Assembly: GCA_003707065.3 (NCBI GenBank)
Contig: PPXM03000013.1
Location: 62,001 to 126,000 of the forward strand
Length of the DNA stretch: 64,000 bases
From: Trigonopsis variabilis
Lineage: Eukaryota > Ascomycota > Trigonopsidomycetes > Trigonopsidales > Trigonopsidaceae
Direction: 5' to 3'
The notes beneath the pieces are model-generated. The model saw nothing but the letters and a program-made list of their open reading frames with translations. It did not search any database and was not told where the DNA came from. A program made the position numbers and the translations under genes. Position 1 is the stretch's first letter. The number at the start of each line of letters is the position of its first letter. Positions 20,041 through 52,061 of this stretch are shown one piece after another.

Positions 20041-20220
20041 AGTCATATTCAGCGGGGCAAGTAAAACGGCACGCGCTTGACGGATGCCGGTTGGGATGAG
20101 ATTGACATCTGGCCTGGGTCGGCTGGCGGATCTCGGTCCGGGTCGGGGTCCGCCCTCGTCTTTGCTTCATGTCCGTCCAGCCTTAAAAGAGCCGGACCGC
20201 CTTTCATCTATTGGGTAATC

Positions 20221-27372: not shown

Positions 27373-27793
27373 ATGCCTAGTCGAATCCCAGTTACCTCCA
27401 AGAACGCCCCTGCTCCTCTGCCGGTTTACTCCCAGGCGATCAAATATGGCGAGACCGTCTACCTGTCTGGACAGACCGCCATTGACCCTGCCACTGGAAA
27501 ATTAGTCGAGGGAGACATCACCGACCGAGCTGTAAGTATTGTGGGGTGCCGTGCACTAACGTCAGCGCCAAATCTTCAAGAACCTCACTGCTGTGTTGGA
27601 TGAGGCTGGCAGCTCCATCAACGAGGTCCTCAAGGTTACCGTCTACTTGACCGACATGAGCAACTTTGCCAAGGTCAATGAGGTCTATGTCAACTATTTT
27701 GGCGACATCAAGCCTGCCAGGACTTGCGTTGCTGCCTATCAACTTCCCTTGGGAACCGACATTGAGATCGAGCTCATCGCCGCTCTTAAATAA
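27373..27793 (+). CDS. RidA/YjgF/Mmf1-family enamine/imine deaminase, copy 1
   Basis: Exons 27373-27531 and 27566-27793, intron 27532-27565 (34 nt), give 128 residues, the usual RidA size. Diagnostic parts: the N-terminal NAPAPLPVYSQAI, VYLSGQTAIDPATGKL, and the C-terminal KPARTCVAA with the active-site arginine and DIEIELIAAL with the conserved glutamate. RidA proteins hydrolyse reactive 2-aminoacrylate and related imines from PLP enzymes and amino-acid oxidases. No targeting peptide is obvious. The gene converges on a C2H2 regulator only 71 bp away. Confidence 0.93.
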
Positions 27794-33896: not shown

Positions 33897-36097
33897 CTTC
33901 TAGCAGTGACAATAAACTTTATCCAGCTGTGCAAAGGCAAAAGATGATCAGTGCCCAGGAGGACGAGGGCCCACGTCTTTTAAAGGGTTACCCCTCCTTA
34001 CAGGGAATCATTTCAAGGTCCGACTTAATCATCTGATACGTCCCCACGGCACCTATTTGATGATGACAGTAGTGAGCCGGCCAAGAGAGGATTTCCCAAT
34101 CTGCATCCGCAAGCCCCTCCCCCACCTCGGTCCATTCCAGGCATGTTCAAGACAAAAGAAAAAAAACCGCATTCTCGAGCGTTCTAAAATAATCGAATAA
34201 ACCTGCTAGACAGCTACGAGTCTTTCGTTTAGCCGGCGGGTTTTACCTTTTTCGGCAAAGTGCGGTGGGGTCGCCTCAGATCTCCCAAGCCATCCACGGT
34301 TATGGAACAGTAGCTTCCGTCAGGGCACAGAACAATTCATGTTCCGAGATCTTGCCCCACCAAAGAAGGAGAGTATTATATCAACCAAAAAGCACCCACC
34401 TTCCCAAACCATGCTTGACGTCACCGACGCTACCGATGCAACGTTTCATTTTCTTCGTATTATGGCACTGAACAAGACCTGGTATCTCGAGTGGGTGATT
34501 AGATTTAAAATCAACGTTTCACAATGCTTTCTCTTTAGTAATTATTGTCTTTTCTGCGGCCAAGCTGATGTGGTGATCATGTCAGTGCAAGATTTCCTCA
34601 GACAAATATTTCCCTGTAACAGCTGATCCATATCTCCCCGGAGGAGAGTTTATGCGGCAAACCTGGATGCAGCCCCAGGGACGGCCTGTAAAGATGTCAC
34701 AAGACTTGATGGTGCGCTCGCAGCTACTCGGTGCGGGGATCGCCATAATCAGAGATCTTCATTCAATCTCCGTTCTGGCGATTCCCAGGATTATTAGAGA
34801 CGCACACGTTTGGATCGGGCCGTGTATCAAGGGGTCAAAAGCTTAAATTCATTCGTCCGTATAGTTGCCTCTCCATTTTCGGGTGGCCAAGATACAACTA
34901 AGTTGCGGCAATTAATCCGAGATACACGCCGAGAAAGAGTGCCGATTCTGGGCTGGGGCACGCATCTTCGTATTGTATGGGACAATTGGTGTCGCTGGCA
35001 CTACCTACTCTGAAGATGCCAGGCCAAATGTCGCGAGACGTTGGGATTGAAATGGACAATCTTCTGTGATAAAAGAAGTTTAATAATGTAAACAACGGCG
35101 CTCTTTGCAAAAGTGACGGAGCAGTCGTAGACATTGCCACCAGCAGAAGTGGGATTGCCGAGAGCCCTGACCTGAAGAGCTACACGCTCGTAGATAGAAG
35201 ATTCTATTGCACCTGATTCGTTGCTGCTTACAGCAATTCGTTCTCTTGGCTCTCCCATCTTGGATCTCAAATATGGCATCCTTCATTCTAGCACCGTCTA
35301 GACTTGCTCGTTAACTCCTTGGAACTATATCAAAGGGTATTTTCCGACTTGCCATTCGCGAGATCGGTTATGTATCACCGTATTGCGTTCTGGGTATATT
35401 CAGGACAAGGGCAAGACTGCAAAAAGAAGAGGTGATATGTTCATCAAGAGGTCTGTGAAACGATCATTGAGTTGATCACTGAGATGCTCCAGTTAATCTC
35501 ATGGCTGCTACTGCTGGTAAGCTCCCTCGTGTGAGTTTCCATATCTCTAGATGCCTTTTCCGTAAAGATCCTTTCATCGAGGTGTTTCACCGCCAGTAGA
35601 CTGTATCCTACTAATCCTCGCCTCTGTTGTCTATAGCGACCCACAAGACAAAGAAGACAAAAATCCTGCGGCATAGGGTAAACTGTATTCAGGAGAGCGG
35701 GAGCTTCTGGTCTGGTTCAAGGATCGACCTCTACAGTGTCGATCACCGAACTCAAATGTGATTATACTCTTTCACATAACACCATTTGCATATAAATGAT
35801 CGGTCTGATTAATTGATTCTCTCTGCAGGCTTGCTAGAGGTACATCTTGGAGAAGTTGACTCGCTAGATCCTTTCTACAGGCAGCAATAACAGCAACATC
35901 AGTCGCCCATATGGGAAAAGTTATAAATGACTCAACTTTGCTAATTGTGTGCCATAGATAATATCTACATCATGCGATTATTCCTGCTTTGACATGTATC
36001 GGAGTCCGCGGAATTCTGTCCCTTGATATCGGAGACAGCTGTTATCTATCAGACTGGCGGTGCGTGCACCTTGAGAGAAATTGAGATCAGAGAACTT
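33897..36097. other. 2.2 kb stretch without a supported gene
   Basis: This is the longest gene-free stretch in the window, between the divergently transcribed sugar porter and the first DAL81/TamA-like regulator. Several short frames exist (for example minus 35001-35279 and minus 35444-35674) but none shows a domain, a good start context or splice-linked extension. No tRNA-like B box, tandem array or terminal inverted repeat was recognised. It may carry long upstream control sequences, an undetected non-coding RNA, or decayed sequence. Confidence 0.45.
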
Positions 36098-38329
36098 ATG
36101 AGTGGGGACGGCAAAGCACAAAAGCCCCGGACGAGGCCATATTTCAGGAGAAATCGAAAAGACAGGCCTTGCGATGGGTGTCGAAGACGAAAGACAAGAT
36201 GTGTTAGATCACCAGATACTCGGATCTGTCTGATGTGCAAGACTCACGACGAAGAGTGCACGACGAATCTTGCTCCTCCAGCCAGGAAAAACCCAAAGCG
36301 GCCGTCGTTTGTGACCGCGGAAGACCGGGGCTGCAATTCGACGTCCCAGAATAAGGAGGATTCGAACAGTGAAACCTCCGACAAACCGACCCACAGTGAA
36401 CTCCCTTTGCCCTTAAGGGGGGACGATAGTACGCCGAGCCCGGAAAATGGTATGTTCTTTGACATTATAGTCTGACCGCTCAGTCGGCACTTGGGGCAAC
36501 GAAGTCGAATATAACGAGAAATATAGCGACTTGTTTCTGGCCATGAATGATACATATTATTCTCAATTGCTGGATCATGGCCGATTCGATATCAATTACA
36601 GCTTTCTCAGCGAACGTGCGAGCGCTTCCGGTGGACGGGTGTCTCTGAATCCAGACTGTTATCTACGTTTTGTGGCACCAGATATCACCTTCTCCATGAC
36701 CCGGGATATACAAATAACCGAAGATCAAAAATACCTTCGTCGGATAGCTGAACTTATAGGGCCCTTCTCTGACAAGCTGTTTAATCTCTACTTTGACATT
36801 GTCCATCCTTCTTACCCCATTATTCACAAGGTACTTGCTTCATTTTGTCTTTTACTAAGTGAACAGGCTTCTTTCTTTTCCAAATTTCGACAGGGTGTTC
36901 TTAATCCGGCACTTCTGGCTGCCATCTACTGCTTAGCGTTGAATTGGTGGGATTATGATAGCTCGCTTGCTCGGCACGAGCGTCCGTCAACAGAGGCCTT
37001 GACTGAACTTACATTTGAGGCTGTCAAAGATATGCTGAAACGGCCCAGGCTCTCTTCGATCCAAGCAGGCCTATTGCTTCTTCAGCGAAATCAAGAGGTG
37101 TTTCCCTCCAACAATTCACTGGAGAATCGGATCTTTCTGTCAGACCTCATCATGGCTGCCCAAAAACTTGGCTTGTTCCTAGATTGCAGGTAAGTGTTCT
37201 GGCTTACTGACGCAGCTAATGTCAGCACTTGGAATATCCCTTCTTGGGAAGTACCTCCGCGCAGAAGAGTTGCGTGGGCTCTCTATATTCAAGATAGATG
37301 GTAACTATCCTCTCTTCCGTGGGCTAACTCTCAAGGACATCTTCCCTGCAAGGAATGCCGTGCATTATCCAAGACAAAGACTGGCTCGTACCTATGCTTG
37401 ACCAGGATGATTTTGGATCAGACGTGACCTCTTATAAAGGTTTGAGCGGTGCAAATCTATTCATCGAAATGGCAAAGCTCACCGTTATCCTTTCTCGGCT
37501 GCTCGATGCCATGGATTCGCTCTCTCGTCTGCATAAAGATACAATTAAGCCATCCTCTTTGGAAGAGCTGCTGTCTCCCCTCCAGCAACAGGTGAGATAC
37601 TGGTATTCCGAGTGGCAGCTCTTCAATGATTATAATACCATGGACGATCAATCTCTGTGGACGCCTGGATATCTTCAGATTTCTTATTTTACCATAGAGG
37701 CCAAGATCCAGAGATTGGCCTTGCAGGTTTTGATCGACTCGAGATGCACCTCATTAATCGACCAATCCCGGCGTTCCTGCCAGTTCATTGCAAACACCTT
37801 TGTCACATTCATTAAGGGTCTTAGCCTGAATTCACTCGAGGCCTTTTGGATGTCTCATTCCAAGGAATGTCTTCGTGACCTAGGGCTGTTTATCCTTTAT
37901 CTGCTCTTTACGTCCTCCTCTAAAGAAGAAGCCCTGATCTACCACAAGTTGCAGAAAGCCTATATCTGGCAGCTCCGCCTATCCAGCCGTACTTCTTCTT
38001 TATTCAAGAGCACTTTAATTAACATCGAGTCATCTCTTGATGATATCCAAACGTTAATTGAGAAGAAAATAGCGGAGGCAGATTCATCGGCCGAGATCAA
38101 CCCTGCTGTTCCGTTCACCTCCTCATCCATGGCGTCTCAAGTGGGCGTGAGCCCTGTCCCATCGCTCTTTCTTGAAATAAGTCCTACCAACCAAACCAAG
38201 GACGCAGATAGGTCTGTTTTAGCTGGGCAGGCCATGTCATTTACAAACTTTTTGGAATCGCTCCAAGACCTCCCCAATCCAGCTTTGGAAGAGAATCTGG
38301 AGGCCCAATTTCAGACGCTATCATCCTAG
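36098..38329 (+). CDS. Zn2Cys6 transcription factor, DAL81/TamA-like, copy 1
   Basis: Five exons: 36098-36449, 36484-36830, 36867-37189, 37226-37300, 37336-38329; introns 34, 36, 36 and 35 nt; 696 residues. The zinc cluster is C25, C28, C35, C44, C47, C54 (CDGCRRRKTRC...CLMCKTHDEEC), preceded by basic residues. The regulatory domain includes IVHPSYPIIHK, ALLAAIYCLALNWW, LSSIQAGLLLLQ and RRRVAWALYIQDRW. Each splice was chosen because it restores alignment with the regulator at 52540-54468. DAL81/TamA proteins are co-activators of urea, allantoin, GABA and leucine-use genes, and placement beside the hydantoin cluster fits this. The second intron is 36 nt with no stop, so it could be retained in frame, adding 12 residues. 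The family label is by pattern. Confidence 0.85.
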
Positions 38330-38773: not shown

Positions 38774-40376
38774 TTACTCTAAGTAGCCATTCTGTTGTTC
38801 TTCAGGCCTCCAGTCATTCAAAAAGACGTTTCTAGGCTGTTTTAAAAGATTTCCAACTCTTCTAACAAACTTTCCTGTGCCTTTCTGCGCGATTAGCCCA
38901 CCATGATCCCGATCCCACACGATTTCTCCGCGAAGGATCGTAAAGCGAGGCCAATTCTTGACTACCACACCTTCAAAGGGGGTATAGTCAATGTTATGAT
39001 GAAGCATACCGTTTGTTATCTCGATTTCCCGATTATCGTCATCAGGATACCATATGACCAGGTCCGCGTCATACCCAGGAGCAATGCATCCTTTCTTATC
39101 GAGCCCATATAGTAACGCTGGATTAGAGCAAGAAACTTCGACAAACTTCTGGATACTTATTTTCTTGTCAGAGACTCCCCTGTATCCTAAGGGCATTCTT
39201 GTTTCGACTCCAGGCAGGCCATTGGGGATATCGTAAAAATGCGCAACATTATCTATAAGACCTTTCTTTTTACCCTGCTTGTGATCAAATTTTGATGGGC
39301 AATGGTCAGATGAAAAAGTGGTAAAGGTTCCGTTGGCAATGCCGTCCCACAACGCATCGATATCATCCTTTGTTTCTCGGAGAGGAGGTGAACATATATA
39401 TTTGGCGCCTTCAAAGTTTGGTTTCTTCATCTGATCCGACAAAAGATAGAGGTATTGTGGACATGTCTCTGCGGTGATGGGTAGAAGTCTGGTCTGAGCC
39501 GAACGGATATGATCTCGAGTTTGCCGATTTGATACGTGGACAATGAGAATAGGAGTGTCCATGAGTTCTGACAAGCAGATTGCCCGATAGGATGCTTCGG
39601 TCTCGGCTATTGCTGGCCGTGAAACAGAATGATAAAAAGGATCTGTTTTGTTTTGTTTTTTCAACTCGTTTATCAGACTGCAGTTAGATAACATAAAGCT
39701 TTCATCTCTCACAATTTGATCATGTCCCAGTTCTCAGCATGGATCATGGTCGTCATACCGAGTTTCCTTGTTTGAACCATTAGTCTCATTATATTCTCAT
39801 CACTCAATTGGCGACCTTCATATGTCATGTATGCTTTCACGCTGGAGACCCCATCTTTGAAAACAAGAGCCAACTCCTTATTCACAACAGTGGCAGTTGG
39901 GTTTGTCACAATCAGATGGAACCCATAGTCACAGTACGTTTGTCCAGTAGCCTTTTCATGAGATTCCGCGACCCACACACGATCTTACCTTCTTGTGATA
40001 ATCTGCTACTACCTTGGTGACGCTTTGATCGCTGGGACTCTGAGCAGCAAAACTTATGATCGTCGTCGTTCCTCCACATATTGCTGACCGAGTGCCAGAC
40101 TCAAACGAGTCTCCCGTCAGGGCAGTGCTATGTCCTTGATCGATATGGCAGTGGGAATCAACTCCGCCCGGAGTAACATAAGCTCCTTGTGCGTCAATGA
40201 CTTTTTTGGCGCTTCTAGCCAATCCACAGCCAATGCAAGTGATTATTCCGTCCACAATCGCGATATCAGAATTAGGTGGATAAAGAATTTGGCCAGCATT
40301 AACCTTAATATCAATAATCGAACACGTCCAACTAACAAACCACCACGCCGTTGGTAATTACGGTATCAAAGCTCAT
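38774..40376 (-). CDS. D-hydantoinase / dihydropyrimidinase
   Basis: Four exons on the minus strand: 40341-40376, 39989-40303, 39713-39951, 38774-39677; introns 37, 37 and 35 nt; 497 residues. The binuclear metal site is complete: H63 and H65 (DSHCHID), the lysine to be carboxylated K156 (SSVKAYMTY), H188 (MIHAENWD), H244 (LIVHVSN) and D321 (SSDHCP). CDYGFH is the family motif after exon 3 begins. These cytosolic amidohydrolases open hydantoin or dihydropyrimidine rings. The next metabolic gene encodes an N-carbamoyl-D-amino-acid hydrolase rather than a beta-ureidopropionase, which favours a hydantoinase role over uracil breakdown. An inverted repeat of GATA sites lies about 200 bp upstream. 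Confidence 0.92.
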
Positions 40377-40714
40377 TCTCTTCGACGAATTCAGCGAGAA
40401 GCAACTTTCTGCGTCGTCTGCCGGTATAAAAGGAGTTGGTCTTTTCGGACCTTATCGCCGAACACGGCATCCTCTGCTCGATCTCTTTTGATCTGGCCTT
40501 CCTTTCCCCGAAGACCTCTCAAAGCTCGAACTTTTCCCTCGGTTACTCGGTTACACGGCTAGTGGATCGCTCGTTATCTTATCGCATGTAACGCTGCGAT
40601 AAGGAGTATCATCGAGTGTCTGAGTCTGTGCCTACATTGAATGACACGAGATTAAGAAATTTGCTTTTATTTTACAGCCACACGGACTGACTATTTACAT
40701 GCTAGAATTTCGAT
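40377..40714. promoter_or_regulatory. Promoter of the hydantoinase gene with GATA sites
   Basis: 338 bp between the hydantoinase start and the 3' end of the second RidA gene. GATA-type words are at 40451-40456, 40573-40578 and within the inverted repeat 40578-40603 (listed separately). No gene is present. Confidence 0.5.
40578..40603. promoter_or_regulatory. Perfect 9-bp inverted repeat of GATA sites
   Basis: CTTATCGCA at 40578-40586 and its exact reverse complement TGCGATAAG at 40595-40603, with an 8-bp spacer. Each arm holds one GATAAG core, and a GTTATC overlaps the left arm. Its position about 200 bp upstream of the hydantoinase ATG suits a binding site for a pair of GATA factors. Confidence 0.6.
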
Positions 40715-41136
40715 TTATTGTAGTGCGCTGCATTCTATTTCAATCAGAGCACCACGGGGGAGGCCTGAAACAGCCACACAAGTTCTTGCAGGCTTCATGT
40801 CGGGAAAGTAAGTGGCATAGATCTTGTTGATTGCCGCAAAGTCATCCATGGTTCTTAAAAAGACATTCACTTTGACTATTTTTTCCAAGCTTGTATTAGC
40901 AGCTTTCAAAATGAGCTTGATATTTTCAAGGCTTTGAACCTAAATGGTAAGCAGTTTCACTAAACTTTTTGTACCGTCTGCTCTTCTACCGTGTCTGGCA
41001 GCTTGCCGGTGTCTGGACATGTTCCTGTCTGACCCGACAAAAAGACCATTCCCGAGCATGAGATCGCTTGCGAAATGACAGGGTTTGGCGATGGCGCGGC
41101 CGAGGTGAAGATAACTTTGGGCACTTCTTCTGACAT
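40715..41136 (-). CDS. RidA/YjgF-family enamine/imine deaminase, copy 2
   Basis: Exons 40975-41136 and 40715-40939 (minus strand), intron 40940-40974 (35 nt, GTACAA...TTTAG), give 128 residues. The protein has the RidA frame: AAPSPNPVISQAIS, VFLSGQTGTCPDTGKL, then KPARTCVAVSGLP with the key arginine and ALIEIECSAL with the glutamate. The intron lies at the same place as in copy 1 at 27373-27793 (right after the SGQT...GKL region), yet the sequences differ strongly. It sits between hydantoinase and N-carbamoyl-D-amino-acid hydrolase and is divergent from the latter, across 210 bp. A job in removing imines formed when D-amino acids are oxidised would fit; this is inferred. Confidence 0.92.
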
Positions 41137-41346
41137 ACTTTTCTGAAAAACGTACAGTAGAACCCTAGCTTTTTGTACTCATCAGTATTCTGGATCTCGC
41201 TTTGTTAACCGCCGGCAAGGCCCTGACCATCATTATTGCCGAGTGCGTAACGGCTAATTCCCGCTTACGCTAAGAGAGTGTTATATATTTTGAAGAGAAC
41301 AGACGATGAACAAGATAATCACGTTCCACTCTTACTGAAGTTCTCA
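41137..41346. promoter_or_regulatory. Divergent promoter of RidA copy 2 and carbamoylase
   Basis: 210 bp shared by the two genes. AACCGCCGGCAAG at about 41207-41219 is a CCGCCGG element, similar in make-up to GC-rich elements recognised by Uga3/Dal81-type regulators in yeast; a TTGCCGAG lies some 20 bp further on. Confidence 0.4.
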
Positions 41347-42351
41347 ATGGCAAGGAAAATCAAGGTTGCTGCCGCCCAAGTGGGACGCGTCGATGCTGAC
41401 ACTCCTCGAGAAGAGGTGGTCAAAAGAATGAACGCACTTCTCGATCAGGCAGCTGAGAAAGGCATTGTCTTGGTGGTCTTTCCTGAATTGACTTTCACAA
41501 CCTTCTTTGCAAGATACACCATGGAGCCTGGCTCCAAAGAAGCCGATAAATGGTTTGAACAAGGAGACATTCGGGAAAGCAAAGAGTTGAAGCCCTTCTT
41601 CGATCACGCCAAGGAGCTTAAGATCGCCGTCTATGTGGGTTATGGCGAGCTTACTGAGGAAGGCGAGCACTATAACAGTGCGATCACAGTCGGTCGCGAT
41701 GGTAGCATCATAGCAAAGTACCGAAAGACACATATTCCAGGGGATAAAGCACCCATGAAACAGTTGAATACCCAACATATGGAAAAGAGGTACTTTCTCC
41801 CAGGAAATCTGGGCATGAATGCTTTCAGACTACCCGGCACAGGAGTTGAGACCAACGAGGAACATGGAGACCCTATCTGCGGAATGCTCATCTGCAATGA
41901 TCGGCGATGGCCCGAGTCTTGGCGCGTCTACGGCCTTCAAGGAGCTGAGATGATTCTCTGTGGGTTCAACACACCTTCCAATGGCCCCAGAAACCATGGC
42001 TTCGGCTTCGATATGCCTTTAGATGAGTGCGACCAACTGTGCCGCTACCACAATGAGCTCTGCATGACATACAACTCGTACGCTAATTGCTGCTTTGGGA
42101 TTGCTGCCGCACGATGCGGCCCTGATGATGGAATCTATGACATGATTCCAGAATCCATGATTGTCGATCCGGCCGGCAGAATCGTGGCTCGCGCACAAAC
42201 GGGCGGTGATGAATTGGTCGACGCTGAAATTGATCTCGACATGTGCAATCTGCCCCGTAAGCGAATCTTTGATTTCGATCGTCACCGTCGCCCAGAAGCA
42301 TATGGATTAATCACTTCAAGAAAAGCAATTGTTGAGCCTCCATTTCTATAA
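41347..42351 (+). CDS. N-carbamoyl-D-amino-acid amidohydrolase (D-carbamoylase), nitrilase superfamily
   Basis: 334 residues, one exon. The catalytic triad is Glu47 (FPELTFTTFF), Lys127 (KYRKTHIPG) and Cys183 (LICNDRRWPESW). The motif ICNDRRWPE-WRV-GL-GAE, followed by GFNTP and the late IFDFDRHRRPEAYGLI, closely matches bacterial D-carbamoylases such as the Agrobacterium enzyme, rather than eukaryotic beta-ureidopropionase. The reaction would release a D-amino acid, CO2 and ammonia from an N-carbamoyl-D-amino acid, the product of the neighbouring hydantoinase. It is some 30 residues longer than the bacterial enzyme. The start at 41347 (MARKIKVAAAQ) matches the family; 23 upstream in-frame codons look like leader. 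Horizontal origin from bacteria is possible. Confidence 0.92.
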   Translation: MARKIKVAAAQVGRVDADTPREEVVKRMNALLDQAAEKGIVLVVFPELTFTTFFARYTMEPGSKEADKWFEQGDIRESKELKPFFDHAKELKIAVYVGYGELTEEGEHYNSAITVGRDGSIIAKYRKTHIPGDKAPMKQLNTQHMEKRYFLPGNLGMNAFRLPGTGVETNEEHGDPICGMLICNDRRWPESWRVYGLQGAEMILCGFNTPSNGPRNHGFGFDMPLDECDQLCRYHNELCMTYNSYANCCFGIAAARCGPDDGIYDMIPESMIVDPAGRIVARAQTGGDELVDAEIDLDMCNLPRKRIFDFDRHRRPEAYGLITSRKAIVEPPFL

Positions 42352-42782
42352 ACTTGTTTGCTAATAATAAAAAAATGCCAACTACAAGATCATGCCGCAA
42401 CTACTTTTCGTAAAATGACTTTTCTTTAGATCACCCCATCATTTTCCCCAGCTTGTCATCATTCTTGCTAGCAAGCTCGAGGTTATCGGTATCGCCTGAC
42501 AGCGTGAGAGTGCGGCGCATGGGCGTAGACTTGTGTTTCTGGTGTTACAACTTAGCCGATAAAGATAGCCGGACAACTAGGTCGCCAGTCAAGGCGAAAG
42601 ATGATGCAGACAGTGCACTGTCACCTTTTTTGATAAGAAAATCATCGGAAAAACCACGTTGATCGATCGGATAAGCTTGCGCGGTACCATACCCGTCGAT
42701 ATAACCGATGAGATAAGGGAGAAGAACATGTCCAGAGCCTTATATAGAATCCAAGCGCGATCTCTATTTGAATCAAATCACA
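42352..42782. promoter_or_regulatory. Promoter of the NCS1 permease with GATA sites
   Basis: 431 bp without a gene. GATA-type words: GTTATC 42482-42487, GATAAA 42558-42563, GATAAG 42670-42675 and 42712-42717. TATATAG near 42741 is a possible TATA box about 40 bp before the start. Confidence 0.5.
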
Positions 42783-44621
42783 ATGGTTGAAGGGTCCTTT
42801 CTGAAAAGACTCGATTATCGATTACAGACAAGACATTGGAAAGAAAACCATGGCGAAGACAAACACCAGAACATGAGAAATGAAGATCTCGGTAAGGAAA
42901 CGAATATGCATAAACTAACAGTCAAGATCCTACGCCGTGAGTTAGCCATGATGAGGTTGTGGAGCTGACAGAATTAGACCTAGTATGAGGACGTGGAGCT
43001 GGATCCAATATTTCCTTGTCTTTTGGGCAGTTTCTTTCAATCCTAATCAATATAATACTGGTGCAAGTTTAGTCAATCAGGGTCTGGTATGGTGATTTTT
43101 GCTTCACAAGACTAACGGGATCAGCTCTGGTGGCAGGCTACCGTGGCTATCTGCATTTCGTGCTGTATCTGTTCTTTTGCTCTAGTTTTTATCTCCCGTG
43201 GTCCTTCAACATACCACATTGGGTTTCCTGTCTTTATCAGAACATGTGCTGGCCATTATGGTGCATATTTTTTCATTCTCCTACGCCTTATGGTTGCCTC
43301 CATCTTCTTCGCCGTTCAAAGCTACTATGCAGGTCAATTAACTGATGTGATGATGAGATGTATCTTTGGGTATAAGTGGCAGAACATCCCCAACCATATT
43401 CCTGAAGTCCAGCATTTCACGACGAGAAACATGGTCGCCTATTTGATCTACTGGGTTGTCCAGCTTCCCTTCATGTTCATTCATCCGGAAAAAGCCCGCT
43501 GGCTCTTCACAGTAAAGTCTATTATTGTCCCTCCTGTCATCTTTGCGACGTTTGGGTTTGTCATTGCTAAAAATGGAGGCTCCATTGGCCATCCAGACTC
43601 CCTTACTACCAAAGCTTTAACTCCATCTCAGACTGGCTGGGCTTTCATGGCAGCCATGAACTCTGTGGCTGGTACGACTGTTCCTGAGATCATGAGTAAC
43701 GCTGATCTCGCTCGATATGCGAGGAAAGTTTGGTATACAACGTGGCCACAATGGTTTGGTTTAGCCTCGGCGAGAGCTCTGGTCATCTTTCTCGGTATAG
43801 CATCTGCGAGTGCTGCCAAAGGAGTCTACGGTACAGCATACTGGAACATGTGGGATCTTTATGGTGCCATTTTGGATCATAACTGGAATGCCGGGGCTCG
43901 CTGTGCTGTTGCATTAGCCTGTTTTTTCCAGCTGTTTGCAGTTATAGCGACTAACTTGAATGCAAACTGTCTTCCCGTGGGAGCTGACTTGACAGGGCTT
44001 TTCCCCAAATATTTCAATATTGTCCGTGGTCAGTTCCTCTGTGCAATGCTCGCTTGGCCTTTAGTTCCTTGGAGAATCGTTGGCACGGCTCAGAATCTTC
44101 TGATCTTCCTTGGCTCGTCTACCTGTTTCCTTGGGTCTCTGATTGGTATCTGCATCACAGACTACTTTTTTATTCGCAAGGGAAATATACATATTCCTTC
44201 TCTCTATCTCCCGCAAGAGTCAAGCCCTTATTATTACTATAAAGGTTTCAATATTCGCACCTACATCTCCTGGGTTGCTGGGACTGTCATCACTATTCAT
44301 GGCCTGTCTGGATCTTACAGCATCACTGCTCCTCAAGTCTCTAAACACTTTTATTCGCTCGGCTTCCTCCTTTCTTACACGACAGGCTCAGTTTTCTATT
44401 TTGTTATAAACAAGTTCTTTCCACCTAAGATCTACCCCAAGGGTCACGAGGACTCTCCCAAAACTTTTGAATATCTCGGGGCCACGGATGGCTATTTTGA
44501 GGATGAAAATGTAATTGAAGGAGTGGTTTTTGTTGATGAGGCTAACGACAAGTCTGAGTCAGATGATAGGCTGAGAGATACAAAGGGTGACTTGCCTTCT
44601 TTTGGGAGTAGCTTGACTTAG
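42783..44621 (+). CDS. NCS1-family permease (allantoin/uracil/hydantoin type)
   Basis: Exons 42783-42891, 42927-42936 (10 nt), 42978-43086 and 43125-44621; introns 35, 41 and 38 nt; 574 residues. The 10-nt exon is needed to build NEDLDPTPPSMRTWSW, the conserved motif before TM1 of NCS1 carriers; the third exon gives AVSFNPNQYNTGASL (TM1) and the fourth begins LWWQATVAI. About twelve hydrophobic segments follow, including AGTTVPEIMSNADLARYA with the cation-site region. NCS1 members carry allantoin, uracil, cytosine or, in Mhp1, benzyl-hydantoin. Same-strand position downstream of D-carbamoylase suggests hydantoin or allantoin uptake. Intron acceptors skip an AG lying directly after the branch point. 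The stop codon lies inside a tandem 33-bp duplication. Confidence 0.88.
42927..42936 (+). other. 10-nt micro-exon of the NCS1 permease gene
   Basis: This exon (ATCCTACGCC) joins phase 1 to phase 2 and encodes the Asp-Pro-Thr-Pro part of the pre-TM1 motif. Omitting it, or using the first AG after the branch point in either flanking intron, shifts the frame into a stop. Confidence 0.7.
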
Positions 44622-44656: not shown

Positions 44657-45608
44657 CTTGCCGTTATCAATGTCTGTGTTCTTTTGGTTGCATTATCGTA
44701 GGCTATATTACAACTAATCATTCGGGGGTCCAAGGCATCAAACCAAGTCTAAAACAGTTACATCTACTGTTGCCTAAGTTGAGACACTTGGAAATATTCG
44801 TATTCTAAAAACCTGCATAGTCCAATTGCGGAACTTAAAAGATACCCGTGTATCTTAATGGCATTCGCGAATGACGATCGTACGTTATTGTATATAGCCC
44901 TGAATAGCTCAGATATCCAACTACACAGCAAAAGGAGTAATGTTTTCTACTCTGTTGAGAAGTTTTTTTCAACTAAACCTATATCTCATTTAAGAGTTTG
45001 AATTTTCTATTTTCTTTCGACGATCACTCACACTGGAGAGCTATCAAAAACCGTAACAGAGAAAAAGGATATCTAGCTTTCAATTGACGTCTTTTACAGC
45101 TACTAAACAAAGATATGCTGTGGTTAGAGGATGGAACTACACTTTAATCCCATGGCGTGGAATCTCTATCAAAGTTCTAATAATCTTTGATCCTTTCACA
45201 CGACCAGCAAGTCAACTCATTACGTGACGAGGCCTCCTCTTCTGAAAGTGAAAGAGAACGACACTTTCATCTAGGGCAATGTAAGACCAATTCTTCTTTT
45301 CTTGAACGGAAAAGAAACTTTGATGCTAAACGACGTTATCCGTTATCAAGGCGGGTAAGAAGCTCGCGGAGAGAACCTAAGAAAATGCCGTACGGATTTA
45401 TACCGAGCCCATCTGTATTATCGTGGCGGCATGTCTTTCATTTGCAATCGCCGATAAGGCTTGGGCGTAGCCGGGAAGGAACTGATAAGAACGGTAGCGC
45501 TCGGCTATCCGCTAACGAACCGCTTAAAGTGTTCCCAAAGGTGCAACGGCTAGGACACAAAGTGATTTAAAGATGAGGGAGCCTTGTCCGTAAGCTCCAA
45601 TTCTTGCA
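44622..45608. promoter_or_regulatory. Intergenic region with GATA cluster upstream of the PuuE-like gene
   Basis: 987 bp. Reverse GATAAC words at 45335-45340 and 45342-45347 and forward GATAAG at 45453-45458 and 45484-45489 lie 120-275 bp upstream of the PuuE-like start. A plus-strand open frame (45187-45570) runs through this region but is Arg/Ser-rich without a domain; I regard it as chance. Confidence 0.5.
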
Positions 45609-46682
45609 ATGGTGGTAGCTGAAGCGAAATACGACGTTCCTCGCGACTTGATTGGGTACGGTGAAGCTGGTCTTTCTGTGCCTTGGCCTAATGGTGCGAG
45701 AATAGCAATAACAATTTGCATCAACTATGAGTGAGTACAATGCTGAATAAGATTGACGGTCAGGGAAGGCGCAGAACGTACGATTAGCAATGGCGATGCC
45801 GGATCAGAAATCAGCAATTGGGAGCGAAGTAAGTATGGCTCTTGGATTCCTTACTAATATCTCAAGCCGGTGAGGCCCAGAAAATTGGTTCTCGTAACCC
45901 AGTAGCCGAATCTCATTACGATTATGGTGCGCGGGCTGGATTCTGGCGACTTTTCCGAATGTTCAGGTCGCGAGGACTACCCTTTACTCTCCTAGCTATT
46001 GGACAGGCAATTGAAAAGAACCCTTCTGTTATCGATGCCTGCGTAAGAGAAGGATGCGAGATTGCTGGACATGGATATCGATGGGTCGATTTCTATGACT
46101 GGGAGCCAGAAAGAGAAAAAAAGAACATCAACATGACTATCGATGCGATCAAAAAGTTATCAGGCTCTTACCCGAAAGGATGGTTTGTGGGTCGAGCTAG
46201 TCCCAACTCGATTGGTCTTGTTCAAGAAGTCTTTAAGGAGAGAGGACTCCCGCTCAAGTGGGAGAGCGACACCTTTGCGGACGACGTCCCATACTGGTTG
46301 ACTATGCCAGGAAAGGACGACGAGCCAGAAGGTATGAGGTGTACTGTTGACCATTCTAATTACAGGATTGTTGATGGTTCCATACGCGTATGATTCCAAC
46401 GACATGAAATTTTCCATGAATCCAGGCTTCCAAGCAGCAGATGGATGGTGTGACTACTTGAAGAGAACGTTTGATACTCTGTATGAGGAAGGAGGAAAAA
46501 TGATGTCGTTAGGCCTGCACTGTCGATTGGTGGGCCGACCAGGAAGAGCCAAAGCGTTGCAAGATTTTCTTGATTACATCTTGGCAAAAGAGGACGTCTG
46601 GGTCTGCAATCGCTCAGAGATTGCCGACTTTTTCGCCAAAACGTATCCATATAACCCCCCTAAGCTTCAAACCAAGCTATAG
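45609..46682 (+). CDS. PuuE-type allantoinase-like hydrolase (polysaccharide deacetylase fold)
   Basis: Four exons: 45609-45730, 45764-45828, 45867-46331, 46366-46682; introns 33, 38 and 34 nt; 322 residues, close to bacterial PuuE (about 308). The N-terminus PRDLIGYG...WPNGARIAI and INYEEGAERTISNGDAGSE, then ESHYDYGARAGFWRL, AIEKNPSVIDA and EIAGHGYRWVDFYDW match PuuE proteins, which hydrolyse allantoin independently of metal, unlike the classic DAL1 amidohydrolase. Late parts include YAYDSNDMKF and LHCRLVGRPGRAKALQDFL. It could equally act on a related cyclic ureide such as a hydantoin. It converges on TAD3, 217 bp away. Confidence 0.88.
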
Positions 46683-46899: not shown

Positions 46900-48025
46900 T
46901 TATGCATCTATGCCTTCATCCAGAGCGGAAGTCATTTCCTGCCCAGTCAATCTCCAAGCCTGAAAGCGCCAATTTAACTGCTTATGAGAATGAATGCAAA
47001 AACCAGCGCCAGAAGTAGGTTCAATGCCTCCTGTCTTTGGCATCTGCTTGGCATAGACAAGCTTGCTGACCCGCGAGTGAACGAGAGCCATGCTGCACAT
47101 CGTACAGGGCTCATGGGTGGTATATACATGGAGATTATGACAAAGGTATGTTTGTCCTGGGGCGGGCGAACCGTCCCGGACTTGACGTTTGTGTCCCTGC
47201 CGCCTTTCTCTCTCTTGTCGAGCCACTTCCTCTATTGCCTTCATCACGCTGTGATTAAGTGGATTCCCGTCAGTTTTGCGATGATCCGCTATTTTGCAGA
47301 GAACCTTATCTTCGTTGGGGTCCACGATAAGAGTCAGAATAGGGGGATTTTCGGAGTCTTGGAATTCGTGGGATAACACATCTTGCATGTACCGTGCCAT
47401 TGTCGTAGCTTCTTCCTTCGAAAGATCTATTGGTCGTAATTGTGGATTATCTCGCCAGATACAGGGCCAGAGCATTTCTGACCATTGTTGGTTTTGTTCT
47501 CGAGTCAGAGCAGGAAACCTTGGACAGCTCTTTCGATAAATTGGGAGGCCACTCATAACTTCGTCCAGAATCGCTCGCATTTCAGCCTCAGACTCAATAC
47601 ACTCCATCGAACAGATTTCCACGTTTAGCATGAGCTCATCCGAAGACGGAGGAGGAGTCGCATCATTATCACCAGGCTTGTTTGATCCGACTTTAAAAAC
47701 ACGACGAAGATGGCCCAAGTTAACTGGATCCGGAGGTACTCGCTCTTTCAGATGTCTGCAAGTCAGCCCCAAATTCTTTGTGAAAGCAATACCTTAGTAG
47801 CTTAGCTGAATCGCATGCCCGTAAAACCGTGACCCATATATCAACTGGAAATTAGCTTTTTGTCAACATGAAAGTAATACCAAGAACAAGATCGCACTCG
47901 GTTGGAACCCGACGAATCTCTATGAACTCGGCTGTCTGCCCATTCTTATGAGCACCGTTTGACGGAGTCTCCTTTGATGCCACAGAGCCATTTGGTGAGG
48001 CCCCATTCCGGTCCTCTGCCGTCAT
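46900..48025 (-). CDS. TAD3: tRNA-specific adenosine-34 deaminase non-catalytic subunit
   Basis: Exons 47881-48025, 47793-47844 and 46900-47755 (minus strand); introns 36 and 37 nt; 350 residues, as in human ADAT3 (351). The cytidine/deoxycytidylate deaminase fold is in the C-terminal half: NHSVMKAIEEVARQE carries the zinc-binding His but Val replaces the catalytic Glu, the hallmark of Tad3, and TTHEPCTMCSMALVHSRVSK carries the two zinc Cys. The N-terminal half reads ...LRACDSAKLLRHLKERVPPDP across two introns. Tad3 pairs with Tad2 to convert A34 to inosine in tRNA anticodons. This housekeeping gene lies inside the nitrogen-use island without an evident functional link. Confidence 0.94.
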
Positions 48026-48245: not shown

Positions 48246-49523
48246 CTATGTAGTGTGATGGCCATTGGTATATCCGTTTGTAGACTCCGAAGGAAACGCA
48301 CACGTTCCTGAGACCATCTTTTGGGCGGGAGTCGCCGACGGAGACACATCGAAATCAAAGATATCCATGGGAACTCCTATGGTGGTACATGAATTGGGGA
48401 TGTCGACGATTCCAGCCACATGGCCTTGGATGGGAGCTGAACTCAGCAGTAAATAAATTTGATAGTCATTATATCCAAATCGGCGGAAATATTCAATGGT
48501 TCGGAGAACAGTTTGACGATAAGCTTCGGTAGTATCAAGGAATAATTGTTCCCCTTCACTGTTGACTGAGAACCCTTCAAAAGTAAGATACCGGTTTGGT
48601 CCATAGTGAGGTTCCATGGGCCCAGGAATATACATGGGGGACTTCATATCCATAGCAGACATGCCGCCCTTTAGAAGGGAACATTTGAGGGTGATTACGC
48701 CGGCCATCTCGATGCCCCCACAGAAAGAGATTTCACCGTCACCCTGGGAAAAATGGAGATCCCCGACTGAGAGCTTGGCCCCAGGGACATAGACAGGAAG
48801 ATAGACCTTGGATCCTCTTGAGAGGTTTTTTATATCGCAGTTTCCGCCATTTTCAGGCCGTCCAGGAATCGTGCGGGCTCCTTCTGCAGCGACACGAGCA
48901 GCAGAGGTCTGGTCAGCTAGCGTACCAGCAAAAGCGTGGTTCTTATTCGGTAGCTGGGCAACAATCTTGTCTGTTTTATTACAGGCGACTAACTCGCCCT
49001 CGCGGCGGTTCCATTCTGCCAGGATCTCATGACTGGGGGCAGTTCCGACGATACCAGGGTGGATGAGACCAGCAAATCGAACCCCAGGAATGTGTCGCGA
49101 AGAACAATGAATGCCCTCGAAATCAAAAACGGCTTTAGCAGCAAGAGGATAAAGCTCATCTAGGAAACCACCGCCATTTTCCTTCGCAAAGACCCCGCAA
49201 TAACCCCAAGGCTGGCGCTCGAGCGGTTGCACGTCCTGGATCTCGACAACGAGCACATCGCCAGGTTCAGCACCTTTGACGTTGACGGGACCAGACAGAT
49301 AATGAATATGAGTAAGATCGACATATTTGATGTCGTCTGCGCAATCGTCATTTTTGATCTGACCTCCTGTCCAGTCGAGACATTCCATCTTGAACACTTC
49401 CCCTTCTTCTACATCAACCGCAGCAGGAATATCAGGGTGCCAGCGATTATGCAGTCCTGGCTGCTCCCAGGCGGGCTTGTCGAGAGAAACTTTAACGGCA
49501 GTGCGAATGGGTTTGATAGCCAT
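48246..49523 (-). CDS. Formamidase/acetamidase (FmdA family)
   Basis: 425 residues, one exon. The full FmdA/AmdA architecture is present: PAWEQPGLHNRWHPDIP at the N-terminus, VNVKGAEPGDVLVVEI, WGYCGVFAKENGGGFL, RFAGLIHPGIVGTAPS and NGGNCDIKNL, then GDLHFSQGDGEISFCGG and a C-terminal half with PNRYLTFEGFSV. These are cytosolic metal- or Cys-dependent amidases that release ammonia and formate from formamide; fungal formamidases of this type are nitrogen-regulated. The gene is divergent from DUR3 across 516 bp holding GATA motifs and two GC-rich palindromes, so both are probably induced together. An acidic Ser/Thr tail ends the protein. Confidence 0.94.
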   Translation of the reverse strand: MAIKPIRTAVKVSLDKPAWEQPGLHNRWHPDIPAAVDVEEGEVFKMECLDWTGGQIKNDDCADDIKYVDLTHIHYLSGPVNVKGAEPGDVLVVEIQDVQPLERQPWGYCGVFAKENGGGFLDELYPLAAKAVFDFEGIHCSSRHIPGVRFAGLIHPGIVGTAPSHEILAEWNRREGELVACNKTDKIVAQLPNKNHAFAGTLADQTSAARVAAEGARTIPGRPENGGNCDIKNLSRGSKVYLPVYVPGAKLSVGDLHFSQGDGEISFCGGIEMAGVITLKCSLLKGGMSAMDMKSPMYIPGPMEPHYGPNRYLTFEGFSVNSEGEQLFLDTTEAYRQTVLRTIEYFRRFGYNDYQIYLLLSSAPIQGHVAGIVDIPNSCTTIGVPMDIFDFDVSPSATPAQKMVSGTCAFPSESTNGYTNGHHTT

Positions 49524-50039
49524 GGTGGAAGCAGAGCACTAGCGACTCCTCAATATATATATGGAGGGTGACCACTGCTTTCCCTAATTCGATCACACCT
49601 CACTTGCTACTTTAATCTTTTCTATCTTGTATCATTCTCTTAATCAGTGGCTCTACTTGTTTCGAGAGCGGCGGGGCATCGCCGCGGCGAACAGTACCCG
49701 AGCGCCATCGCAATCAGATCTAATCTTCGCTGACACCAGCCATCTAATCTAAGTTTGTCTCTGAACTTATCTCAGGCACAAGAGATAAGGCTTCTTTATC
49801 GGCATGACCTATCAATTGACGTGAAAAGTTACACGGGCGTTACTGACATTAGTCAATAACGGGATTCTTGTCGCCGCGGCGCGGCATGCCGTCTACCGGC
49901 CGCCATCGATCTTTAATCGATGAGTCCTAAAACTTTGGCAAAAGGTGCACATATCGGACGATAGATAATGGAAAAGATAGACGTTTAATTATATATAGTG
50001 TTACCGTGTTTGCTTGCTCAACTAACATTCTTGAATACC
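49524..50039. promoter_or_regulatory. Divergent promoter of formamidase and DUR3
   Basis: 516 bp without a gene. It holds GATA words at 49766-49771, 49784-49789 and 49795-49800, a TATATATA element close to the formamidase start (49553-49561), and two copies of a GC-rich palindrome (next entry). Confidence 0.6.
49680..49881. promoter_or_regulatory. Two copies of the perfect palindrome CGCCGCGGCG
   Basis: CGCCGCGGCG occurs at 49680-49689 and 49872-49881, both preceded by T, 192 bp apart, one near each gene start. Each holds CCGCGG, a zero-spacer everted CGG pair recognised by several Zn2Cys6 proteins. Each copy is also near a GGCAT word. A specific regulator of formamidase and DUR3, perhaps the Zn2Cys6 protein encoded just beyond DUR3, may bind here. 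Confidence 0.5.
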
Positions 50040-52061
50040 ATGGTCGAAGCTATTCTTAATCAAGGATACGGATATGGTATAATTCTCGGGCTGGGGTTTG
50101 CGTTTGCCCTGCTGATGATCACTGTTACCTATGTTTTAAAACGATATGTGGGCGAGATCCAAGACTCTGAGCATTTTTCTACTGCTTCACGATCCGTAAA
50201 GACTGGGCTAGTAGCTTCAGCTGTCACGTCGTCCTGGACATGGCCAGGTACTTTACTTACATCTTCCGGCATGGCCTACTCATATGGCGCCATGGGAGCC
50301 TATGCCTATGCTAGTGCCTTTACTATTCAGATTACTTTCTTTGCGATCATTGCTCTGCAGATCAAGCGGGTTGCGCCCGGTGCTCATACCGTCGTTGAGA
50401 TTATTAGGGCCCGCTATGGCGCCGTCGGCCATCTTGTCTTCCTTTTCTATGCTCTGGGAGCCAATATCATCATTTCTGCTATGCTTCTGCTTGGAGGTTC
50501 TCAAGCCATCTCAAGTGTCACTGGGGTCCATGTTGTTGCCTGTGGATTTCTGCTCCCTCTTGGTGTCATTCTTTATACTTTAACTGGTGGACTCAAGGCT
50601 ACTTTCCTCACTGACTGGATCCACACTGTCATCGTGTACATTGTCATTTTGGTTACCATGTTTGTCTGTTACACGTCTTCAAAACACATTGGCAGCATCG
50701 ATCGAATGTATGATTTGTTGACTGAGGTCGGAAAGACTCATCCTTCTGCAGGTTATCAAGGAAGCTACTTGACATTCGGCAACACTGATGGTATCTACAA
50801 TTTGTGGAATATAGTTATCGGTGGCTTTGTCACTGTGTTTTCCGACCCAAGTTATGGACAGAAAGCCATTGCTGCACAGCCTGTTGCTGCCATGAAAGGC
50901 TATTTCCTCGGTGGTGTCTGTTGGATGGTTATCCCATGGGCAATGGGCAGTGCTGCTGCATTATCATGTCTTGCTATGACCAACAATCCCATTTCTGTGT
51001 CTTATCCCAACCTTTTAAGTTCTAAAGATGTCGCAGAAGGCCTACCGTTGCTTTACGGCATGTACAACCTCATGGGCGCTAAAGGTGCCAACTGCGGTGT
51101 CTTGATTTTGTTCATGGCTGCTACTAGTGCCACTAGTGCCGAGCTTATTGCCTTTTCTTCTGTTATGACCTACGATGTTTATCGGACTTACTTCCGACCG
51201 AATGCTTCTGGAAAGGAACTCGTCAAGGTTACTCATCTCTTTGTAATGTTCTTTGGTGTTTGCATGGGAGCAGTTGCTGTCCTTTTCAACTATATTGGCA
51301 TCACGATTTCATGGATTCTTAATTTCCTTGGAGTTGTTCTTGGGCCCTCTGTGTTTGCAATTACTCTTGCTCTTTTCTGGGGCAAGTTCAGTAAGAAGGC
51401 TTTGATTATTGGATCACCTCTTGGATCGGTGTCTGGTATTCTTTGCTGGGTGGGTTCCGCATACGTCTTTTCCGATCACGTCGTCAACAAAAATACTCTG
51501 AATGTGCCAAAGGCCGACTTGATTGGCAATCTCGTTTCCTTGTTTTCATCTCTCATTTACTTTGTTATCTTTTCTTTTATCTGGCCCGATACTTACAACT
51601 TTGATGAGCTCGACGGTAATTTCATCGTCGGAGATGACGCTACTAGAAAGGAGGCTGAGGAAATGGAAGTTGATCCCAACGAACGCGAAAAGCTAAAGAA
51701 AGCTCTAAAGCTTACCCAAATTGTTGCCTGGTTTATCTTCTTTGCCATTATCATTCTGTTGCCTTTGCCCATGTACGGCACCAACTATATTTTCTCAAAG
51801 CCGTTCTTCCGCGGCTGGATAATTGTCCTATTCATCTGGCTTATAATTGCTGCTATATTTATTACGTTCTATCCACTTTGGGAAGGTCGAGACACTTTGA
51901 TCTATCTCGCGAAACTGGCCCTTGGAAAGACAAAAGAGAGAAAAGCTCCTGTCATGCTGTGTGATTCCACTGATCCCGAGAGGCGCTCCGACTATTCACT
52001 AGAAAGAGAGAAGAGCGGTGTGGTTTCTGGAGAAAAGTCTCTAGCTGATGATACATCATAG
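50040..52061 (+). CDS. DUR3: Urea/polyamine active transporter of the SSS family
   Basis: 673 residues, one exon, about fifteen membrane segments. Sodium:solute-symporter family features specific to Dur3 are present: SEHFSTASRSVKTGLVAS, VTSSWTWPGTLLTSS, GAMGAYAYASAF, SDPSYGQKAIAAQP and AATSATSAELIAFSSV, then TYDVYRTYF. Dur3 imports urea (and polyamines in yeast) at the plasma membrane at low external concentrations. It lies in the ureide/amide island between formamidase and a DAL81/TamA-like regulator. The start at 50040 (MVEAILNQGYGYGI) matches the family; an upstream in-frame ATG at 49998 adds 14 hydrophobic residues and is less likely. The C-terminal tail is hydrophilic and Ser/Glu-rich. 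Confidence 0.95.
   Translation: MVEAILNQGYGYGIILGLGFAFALLMITVTYVLKRYVGEIQDSEHFSTASRSVKTGLVASAVTSSWTWPGTLLTSSGMAYSYGAMGAYAYASAFTIQITFFAIIALQIKRVAPGAHTVVEIIRARYGAVGHLVFLFYALGANIIISAMLLLGGSQAISSVTGVHVVACGFLLPLGVILYTLTGGLKATFLTDWIHTVIVYIVILVTMFVCYTSSKHIGSIDRMYDLLTEVGKTHPSAGYQGSYLTFGNTDGIYNLWNIVIGGFVTVFSDPSYGQKAIAAQPVAAMKGYFLGGVCWMVIPWAMGSAAALSCLAMTNNPISVSYPNLLSSKDVAEGLPLLYGMYNLMGAKGANCGVLILFMAATSATSAELIAFSSVMTYDVYRTYFRPNASGKELVKVTHLFVMFFGVCMGAVAVLFNYIGITISWILNFLGVVLGPSVFAITLALFWGKFSKKALIIGSPLGSVSGILCWVGSAYVFSDHVVNKNTLNVPKADLIGNLVSLFSSLIYFVIFSFIWPDTYNFDELDGNFIVGDDATRKEAEEMEVDPNEREKLKKALKLTQIVAWFIFFAIIILLPLPMYGTNYIFSKPFFRGWIIVLFIWLIIAAIFITFYPLWEGRDTLIYLAKLALGKTKERKAPVMLCDSTDPERRSDYSLEREKSGVVSGEKSLADDTS

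Follow-up and report, generated by a model that had tools for sequence, protein, structure and literature searches.

The window analysed here is a stretch of 64,000 nucleotides from a contig of Trigonopsis variabilis. At positions 38774–44621 it carries, side by side, genes for a hydantoinase/dihydropyrimidinase (HYD), a RidA protein, a D-carbamoylase (N-carbamoyl-D-amino acid hydrolase) family member (CAB) and an NCS1 carrier, the set described in an earlier note on this DNA (Table 1). The start of HYD (40376) lies 971 bp from that of CAB (41347) with RidA between them, and the two hydrolase genes are therefore placed side by side as in hyu sets. HYD is encoded by exons 40376–40341, 40303–39989, 39951–39713 and 39677–38774, separated by introns of 37, 37 and 35 nt. 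For RidA we chose exons 41136–40975 and 40939–40715 with a 35-nt intron, which is one of six splice choices, and the NCS1 gene comprises exons 42783–42891, 42927–42936, about 42978–43086 and 43125–44621, giving a protein of 572, 574 or 576 residues depending on one splice choice. CAB is intronless.

Table 1. Genes and promoter elements at and around the T. variabilis locus (positions within the window).
Feature	Position	Strand	Details
Fungal transcription-factor gene pieces, candidate local regulator	36023–38329	plus	convergent to HYD
HYD, hydantoinase/dihydropyrimidinase	38774–40376	minus	497 aa, three introns, complete set of six metal ligands
Three GATAAG/CTTATC sites upstream of HYD	40451–40603		sites at 40451, 40578, 40598
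RidA	40715–41136	minus	128 aa, 1 intron
Shared divergent RidA/CAB promoter region	41137–41346		no GATAAG (counted over 41137–41349)
CAB, D-carbamoylase family	41347–42351	plus	334 aa, intronless
Three GATAAG sites upstream of NCS1	42632–42717		sites at 42632, 42670, 42712
NCS1 carrier, most like fungal allantoin/uracil permeases	42783–44621	plus	four exons
Two GATAAG sites upstream of PuuE-like gene	45453–45489		sites at 45453, 45484
PuuE-like gene (polysaccharide-deacetylase family), possible further member	45609–46682	plus	322 aa, 3 introns
Formamidase (FmdA), possible outer member	48246–49523	minus	425 aa; NF045496 557.3 bits, cut-off 500
SSF carrier, possible outer member	49998–52061	plus	

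The four promoter regions in Table 1 hold eight GATAAG/CTTATC sites where 1.8 were expected at the rate of the whole window, coding and intergenic DNA together (Poisson P = 6e-4). The GATA sites previously placed in the promoters of the set were found for HYD and NCS1 (three each), whereas the region shared by RidA and CAB has none.

HYD matches the family model TIGR02033 with 445.5 bits (cut-off 393.25) and scores below the cut-off of the narrower model PRK13404 (562.4 against 647 bits). Its binuclear metal site with the lysine bridge is intact, with H63, H65, K156, H188, H244 and D321 at the places named in the earlier note. The best match among solved structures is Pyd2 of Lachancea kluyveri (407 bits); HYD is 43.7% identical to the compared pieces of this enzyme versus 37–42% to 12 bacterial enzymes. 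Quick trees with SH-aLRT support only were built for HYD and CAB from part of the matches listed. In the former, HYD grouped with Pyd2 and other fungal sequences, a placement that carries a warning of long branches (Pyd2 and the outgroup). That HYD resembles Pyd2 more than any of these bacterial enzymes speaks against the proposal that it serves a hydantoin pathway; its neighbour, however, is a D-carbamoylase, and either hydantoin or dihydrouracil may be its natural substrate. A search of the genome for Amidohydro_1 gave six matches in four genes, namely HYD, a guanine deaminase-like gene (375.2 bits, cut-off 375.4), nagA and an allantoinase-like gene in two pieces on contig C5. HYD was ruled out as the allantoinase of this genome because allantoinase AllB is the top match for both pieces of the latter gene (234 and 149 bits).

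CAB belongs to PF00795 (nitrilase fold) and contains both the signature ICNDRRWPE and the E47/K127/C183 triad, in agreement with the earlier reading. It scores 209–231 bits against solved D-carbamoylases and 56 bits against the next solved relative, compared with 26–29 bits against eukaryotic beta-ureidopropionases and 48 bits against one archaeal nitrilase of that name. Published D-carbamoylase numbering was carried over to CAB through a solved relative, with the catalytic cysteine as anchor. The residues E47, K127, G132, H144, C172, N173, R176 and P199, as numbered in the section of PMC11503299 used here, are all retained; in the numbering of CAB itself, the triad and substrate-contact residues are E47, K127, C183, N184, R186, R187, H144 and P210. 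The phylogenetic comparison that had been proposed places CAB, by sequence, with D-carbamoylases and not with beta-ureidopropionases, and in the tree all fungal sequences sampled fall into a single clade that lies among those of proteobacteria. Judged by sequence and site residues, CAB is a D-carbamoylase. One predicted substrate is N-carbamoyl-D-alanine, named as a substrate of a bacterial D-carbamoylase in the same section (PMC11503299). The genome encodes a second D-carbamoylase (CAB2) at another locus with an SSF carrier beside it.

RidA scores 136.6 bits against the subfamily model TIGR00004 (cut-off 106.25), and its Arg106 stands at the place of the catalytic Arg105, an equivalence judged by eye. 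Excerpts of PMC4433059 describe the hydrolysis by Salmonella RidA of imines released by amino-acid oxidases, chemistry that supports the suggested role of this protein against imines from D-amino-acid oxidation. The D-amino acid oxidase (DAO) of this genome, 356 residues long, fits 8 of 8 TvDAO positions taken from part of PMC6770189 at one offset, compared with at most 4 in 2000 shuffles, and ends in PNL, the native TvDAO signal according to a portion of PMC2873405. D-amino acids thus have an outlet in this organism. DAO is encoded on contig C1, outside the cluster; no DAO-family match was found on the contig of the window among the 14 of 33 candidates scored. According to a footnote to Table 2 of PMC2873405, native T. 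variabilis DAO was induced with N-carbamoyl-D-alanine, a predicted substrate of CAB. The claimed production of D-amino acids is favoured by the family of CAB and by DAO as outlet, whereas the nearness of HYD to Pyd2 and a Pyd3/L-carbamoylase-like enzyme encoded in this genome tell against it. No peroxisomal (PTS1) endings were seen by eye on HYD, RidA or CAB.

The last exon of the NCS1 gene contains PF02133 (216 bits). The carrier shows weak similarity to Mhp1 of Microbacterium liquefaciens (45 bits), a member of the same family whose site we take to comprise the ring-stacking Trp117 and Trp220, Gln121 and Asn314/Asn318. The Gln121 and Asn314/Asn318 positions are retained, whereas Trp117 is replaced by Phe137; at the Trp220 position, pairwise alignment pairs a tryptophan with Trp248 of the window carrier, and multiple alignment puts a methionine of Mhp1 there. 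The window carrier belongs with its 14 nearest matches listed, all fungal, in having phenylalanine or tyrosine and no tryptophan at the Mhp1 117 position. Both the low score and the Phe at this position rule it out as an Mhp1 orthologue and weaken the idea that it imports hydantoins.

The cluster may extend past 44621. Upstream of the set, the transcription-factor pieces (PF04082, 29.9 bits in ORF 36531–37193; ORF 37355–38329 has no Pfam match) are candidate members from their position. Downstream, the PuuE-like protein scores 330.2 bits against TIGR03212, under the cut-off of 424.6, and 265 bits against the PuuE structure 3cl6. Twenty-nine of the 80 bacterial CAB loci, mostly of Bradyrhizobium, contain relatives of it; because identity is only 23–28%, these were rejected as the same subfamily. 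Among the sequences compared, the SSF carrier most resembles the one adjoining CAB2. Frames resembling MurNAc-6-phosphate etherase and a kinase were also observed some 16 kb away.

Among the matches listed, 12 species are common to the HYD and CAB lists, and the two genes share a contig in nine of these and lie on separate contigs in three. Ten contigs are common to the best 120 matches of each, with three pairs bearing consecutive locus tags; this fungal linkage was deduced from equal contig sizes and locus tags rather than from DNA. Among 118 of the best 120 NCS1 matches listed, none shared a contig with CAB and only that of Zasmidium shared one with HYD, about 477 locus tags apart. The suggested search for gene order in relatives therefore bore out the pairing of HYD with CAB but not that of NCS1 with either. 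In bacteria, a HYD relative was present in 29 of 80 CAB loci (11 of these lying no more than 7 kb away with an identity of 35% or higher) and a racemase relative in 36, whereas no relative of RidA or NCS1 was found at E values of 0.01 or lower in any of the 80, of which 66 span at least 12 kb. Transporters in the two bacterial loci scanned (L056 and L112) are of ABC type.

The cluster is a fungal variant of the bacterial hyu pathways, with which it shares two neighbouring hydrolase families, D-hydantoinase and D-carbamoylase. It differs from them by introns in HYD, RidA and NCS1, by the presence of RidA and a fungal NCS1 carrier, and by an unlinked racemase-family gene, the sole PF01177 match of the genome being on contig C3. 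Hydantoin racemase is not part of every bacterial hyu set. We found no description of a fungal hydantoinase-carbamoylase cluster in the titles and beginnings of abstracts listed, which cover few subscription journals and, within that range, do not contradict the claim that the cluster is unreported.

We read the observed genes, families and intact sites, the DAO match and the recurrent contig sharing of HYD and CAB as, on balance probably, a nitrogen-scavenging cluster that turns cyclic ureides into D-amino acids for DAO; from this we infer substrates, direction of flow, carrier roles and co-regulation. Ureides would enter the cell through the NCS1 carrier and perhaps also through the SSF carrier. 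HYD would open a cyclic ureide (a 5-substituted hydantoin, perhaps dihydropyrimidines) to an N-carbamoyl amino acid, and CAB would strip the carbamoyl group from the D form, yielding a D-amino acid, ammonia and CO2. DAO would then oxidise the D-amino acid and RidA would hydrolyse the imine released.

The main competing explanation, which we regard as somewhat unlikely, is that HYD is the yeast Pyd2 for dihydrouracil and dihydrothymine, paired with a Pyd3-like M20 enzyme on contig C2, and that CAB is loosely coupled and acts on other N-carbamoyl compounds. This M20 enzyme scores 343 bits against L. kluyveri beta-alanine synthase (358 against a bacterial-type deacylase), in line with the Pyd2 affinity of HYD in structure matches and, subject to its long branches, in the tree; but it lies on a different contig from HYD, and the neighbour of HYD is of the nitrilase family PF00795, whereas Pyd3 is an M20 enzyme (PF01546). 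The DHO_dh family has a single match in the genome and, by that test, dihydropyrimidine dehydrogenase is therefore absent, which counts against this explanation. The Lipomycetaceae, which have the nearest HYDs among the matches listed, are absent from the best 120 of 6919 carbamoylase matches, as this explanation would have it, yet CAB-sharing contigs fall in at least three HYD subclades.

That GATA-controlled, nitrogen-responsive genes adjoin here by accident, with no common pathway, appears quite improbable given the contig sharing of HYD and CAB across species and their proximity in bacteria, even though GATAAG enrichment is expected of any nitrogen-regulated gene, the NCS1 linkage was not found elsewhere among the matches compared and RidA has 12 matches at about nine loci in this genome. 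Least probable is a role in allantoin and purine nitrogen, with NCS1 carrying allantoin and the PuuE-like protein as allantoinase: its NCS1 relatives listed are often named allantoin permeases, the PuuE-like protein scores 330 bits against the PuuE model and the genome contains uricase, but the AllB match of the contig C5 gene, the missed PuuE cut-off and four further NCS1 genes elsewhere in the genome oppose it, and we know of no place for a D-carbamoylase in this pathway.

If the locus is indeed a ureide-scavenging cluster, it may be what provides TvDAO, a widely used industrial enzyme, with substrate in nature. A broader and more speculative possibility, unlikely in our estimate, is a widespread fungal pathway for carbamoylated or cyclised D-amino acids whose D-carbamoylase was gained once from proteobacteria; in T. 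variabilis, CAB and CAB2 would each be accompanied at their own locus by one of two related SSF carriers that import N-carbamoyl-D-amino acids, and the pathway would supply DAO and, with the etherase-like and kinase-like frames, allow feeding on remains of bacterial cell walls. The locus would also offer the hydantoinase process an enzyme pair of fungal origin, and it points to a gene pair that recurs in fungi. The two D-carbamoylases, one of them beside a hydantoinase, provide a simple, testable reason for the induction of DAO by N-carbamoyl-D-alanine, namely that ureides from which D-amino acids are released can sustain this yeast.

Gene models reconstructed in the window with short introns, mostly of 33–38 nt, bear out the gene set described in the earlier note. 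It comprises a hydantoinase/dihydropyrimidinase (HYD), a RidA protein of the imine-hydrolase family, a D-carbamoylase (CAB) and an NCS1 carrier, all rebuilt from the window DNA. RidA and CAB are divergent, with about 210 bases between them. The T. variabilis genome analysed comprised 11.35 Mb in 15 contigs, and the window covers bases 62001-126000 of contig C13. An ammonium transporter gene lies just left of the window on the same contig, C13 (L055:6217-7740; TIGR00836, 360.9 bits, cut-off 343.3).

Features of the hydantoinase–carbamoylase cluster, its neighbours and the second D-carbamoylase locus (window coordinates unless a locus is named)
Feature	Position	Strand	Remarks
Transcription-factor gene			left of HYD
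HYD	40376 to 38774	minus	four exons, 497 aa
RidA	41136-40715	minus	one among several possible splice choices
CAB	41347-42351	plus	
NCS1	42783 to 44621		one splice site ambiguous, two residues either way
PuuE (allantoinase)-like gene	45609-46682		right of NCS1
Deaminase-like gene	46900-47772		right of NCS1
Formamidase	48246-49523		right of NCS1
SSF carrier	49998-52061		right of NCS1
Second D-carbamoylase locus	L044:429-8277 (contig C10)		order: amidase, SSF carrier, CAB2, gamma-glutamyltransferase

CAB is likely a D-carbamoylase. Against solved structures it scored 209–231 bits to D-carbamoylases and 56 to the next enzyme; eukaryotic beta-ureidopropionases reached 26–29 bits, and an archaeal nitrilase with the same name reached 48. 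When CAB was aligned with the 120 homologues listed, the Glu-Lys-Cys triad and residues N173, R175 and R176 were conserved in 119–120 of them. His144 of CAB is replaced by glutamine in 104 of the 120 and by aspartate in CAB2, the paralogue of CAB; Pro199 recurs in 25. The family site is thus intact, whereas some contacts differ among fungi. In a tree built from 68 rows (CAB, CAB2, 48 listed homologues, 17 bacterial copies out of 80 and a single solved enzyme), the 50 rows that are fungal, or presumed to be so, formed one clade (SH-aLRT 100). CAB and CAB2 paired (87) within a group containing Ogataea, Brettanomyces, Candida boidinii and three further rows (99). Rooted on the solved enzyme, the tree nested the fungal clade in proteobacterial D-carbamoylases, which fits a single old transfer from bacteria, the direction of which rests on the chosen root.

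HYD passes the TIGR02033 model (445.5 bits) and carries, at the positions given in the earlier note, all six metal ligands in the rebuilt 497-residue model. Its best solved relative was the L. kluyveri dihydropyrimidinase Pyd2 (407 bits), followed by a bacterial D-hydantoinase (353). HYD shares 43.7% identity with the pieces of Pyd2, 39.4% with the solved D-hydantoinase and 37–42% with 11 bacterial copies located near bacterial CAB genes. In a tree of 70 rows, including 56 of 120 listed matches, every fungal row including Pyd2 was separate from the bacterial rows (99), with Pyd2 and the outgroup flagged by the program as long branches, and HYD adjoined Lipomycetaceae and one further row (99). 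Because of this placement, HYD looks like an enzyme inherited within fungi, unlike CAB. The alternative that HYD serves dihydropyrimidines draws its main support from an M20 enzyme whose scores were 343 bits against the beta-alanine synthase of L. kluyveri and 358 against a deacylase of solved structure. A DHO_dh search of the genome, which gave just one match, did not find dihydropyrimidine dehydrogenase. Hydantoin is only somewhat more probable than not as the natural ring of HYD.

Linkage in other fungi was judged by contigs of identical size and by locus tags in two listings of 120 matches each, one for CAB and one for HYD. Ten contigs were common to both, compared with a mean of 0.14 and a maximum of 3 under random jitter of one list; the HYD–CAB pairing exceeds chance. 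Locus tags were consecutive in Trypethelium, Bathelium and Saxophila and four apart in Xylographa, and one pair occupied a contig of 3852 bases. Several common contigs are megabases long (6.1 Mb in Fulvia), so adjacency there does not follow. Among 12 species named in both listings, HYD and CAB shared a contig in nine (counted by eye) and were on different contigs in Meristemomyces frigidus, Aureobasidium pullulans and A. subglaciale. Rows with CAB linkage were spread over at least three subclades of the HYD tree. Of 80 CAB loci in bacteria, 29 had a relative of HYD close by (in 11 cases with an identity of at least 35%), 36 had one of a racemase and 29 had one of PuuE/deacetylase; at E up to 0.01, no relative of RidA or NCS1 turned up near any of the 80.

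Among the matches listed, the 14 closest to NCS1 (P0241–P0254) were 52–55% identical and, where named, fungal and often annotated as “allantoin permease”. The bacterial hydantoin carrier Mhp1 scored 45 bits. At the position of Trp117 in Mhp1, the window protein has phenylalanine and all 14 nearest relatives have phenylalanine or tyrosine, whereas three of four NCS1 paralogues in the same genome have tryptophan. That NCS1 carries hydantoin is a guess, with somewhat less than an even chance. The genome also encodes uricase and, elsewhere, an allantoinase, two pieces of which best match TIGR03178 (234 and 149 bits). Among ten SSF genes, from twelve places matched in the genome, the carriers near CAB and CAB2 (L044:2466-4481) were mutually nearest (55.5%; next 50–51%). 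This makes it a fair guess, from sequence comparison, that they import N-carbamoyl amino acids. About 16 kb from HYD, two UNC-93-type carriers flank a MurNAc-6-phosphate etherase-like gene (20077-22340, plus strand; TIGR00274, 315.7 bits, cut-off 302) that continues into a BadF/kinase-like frame (PF01869, 50 bits; NagK model cut-off missed); together these genes may form a yeast cluster for sugars of bacterial cell walls.

According to PMC4433059, Salmonella RidA hydrolyses imines from amino acid oxidases and is also linked to carbamoyl-phosphate metabolism; either role would suit the position of RidA in the cluster. A passage of PMC5619798 describes RidA as inactive on the D-arginine-derived imine; the imine role therefore cannot be generalised. 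The window holds a second RidA gene (27373-27781, plus strand), the two pieces of which are 46–48% identical to the RidA of the cluster. On contig C8 (about 5.1–6.9 kb; L030:1432-3279), a RidA domain and a flavin amine oxidase (PF01593) are fused in one 616-residue frame, which joins an imine-maker directly to an imine-remover.

A 1996 study reportedly dealt with induction of T. variabilis by N-carbamoyl-D-alanine. The genome contains several matches to the D-amino acid oxidase (DAO) family, including L011 (144 bits to a solved enzyme), and a racemase-family gene on contig C3. The frame L010 on contig C1 (total length 356) fits, at a single offset, all eight T. variabilis DAO positions discussed in a passage of PMC6770189 (E32, F33, F54, M104, C108, M156, M209 and C298), compared with at most four in 2000 shuffles. 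It terminates in PNL, the native terminal signal of this enzyme according to an excerpt of PMC2873405, and upstream DNA inspected by eye places a short intron inside its first ten codons. Together these features support assigning the genome to T. variabilis or a very close relative. According to the Table 2 footnote of PMC2873405, N-carbamoyl-D-alanine served to induce native T. variabilis, and a section of PMC11503299 describes a bacterial D-carbamoylase as most active on N-carbamoyl-D-alanine and N-carbamoyl-D-tryptophan. CAB or CAB2, which are 54.7% identical, are predicted to convert this inducer to D-alanine, a DAO substrate, which would link the inducer to DAO. For the cluster as a whole, a D-amino-acid pathway is a slightly better than even prospect.
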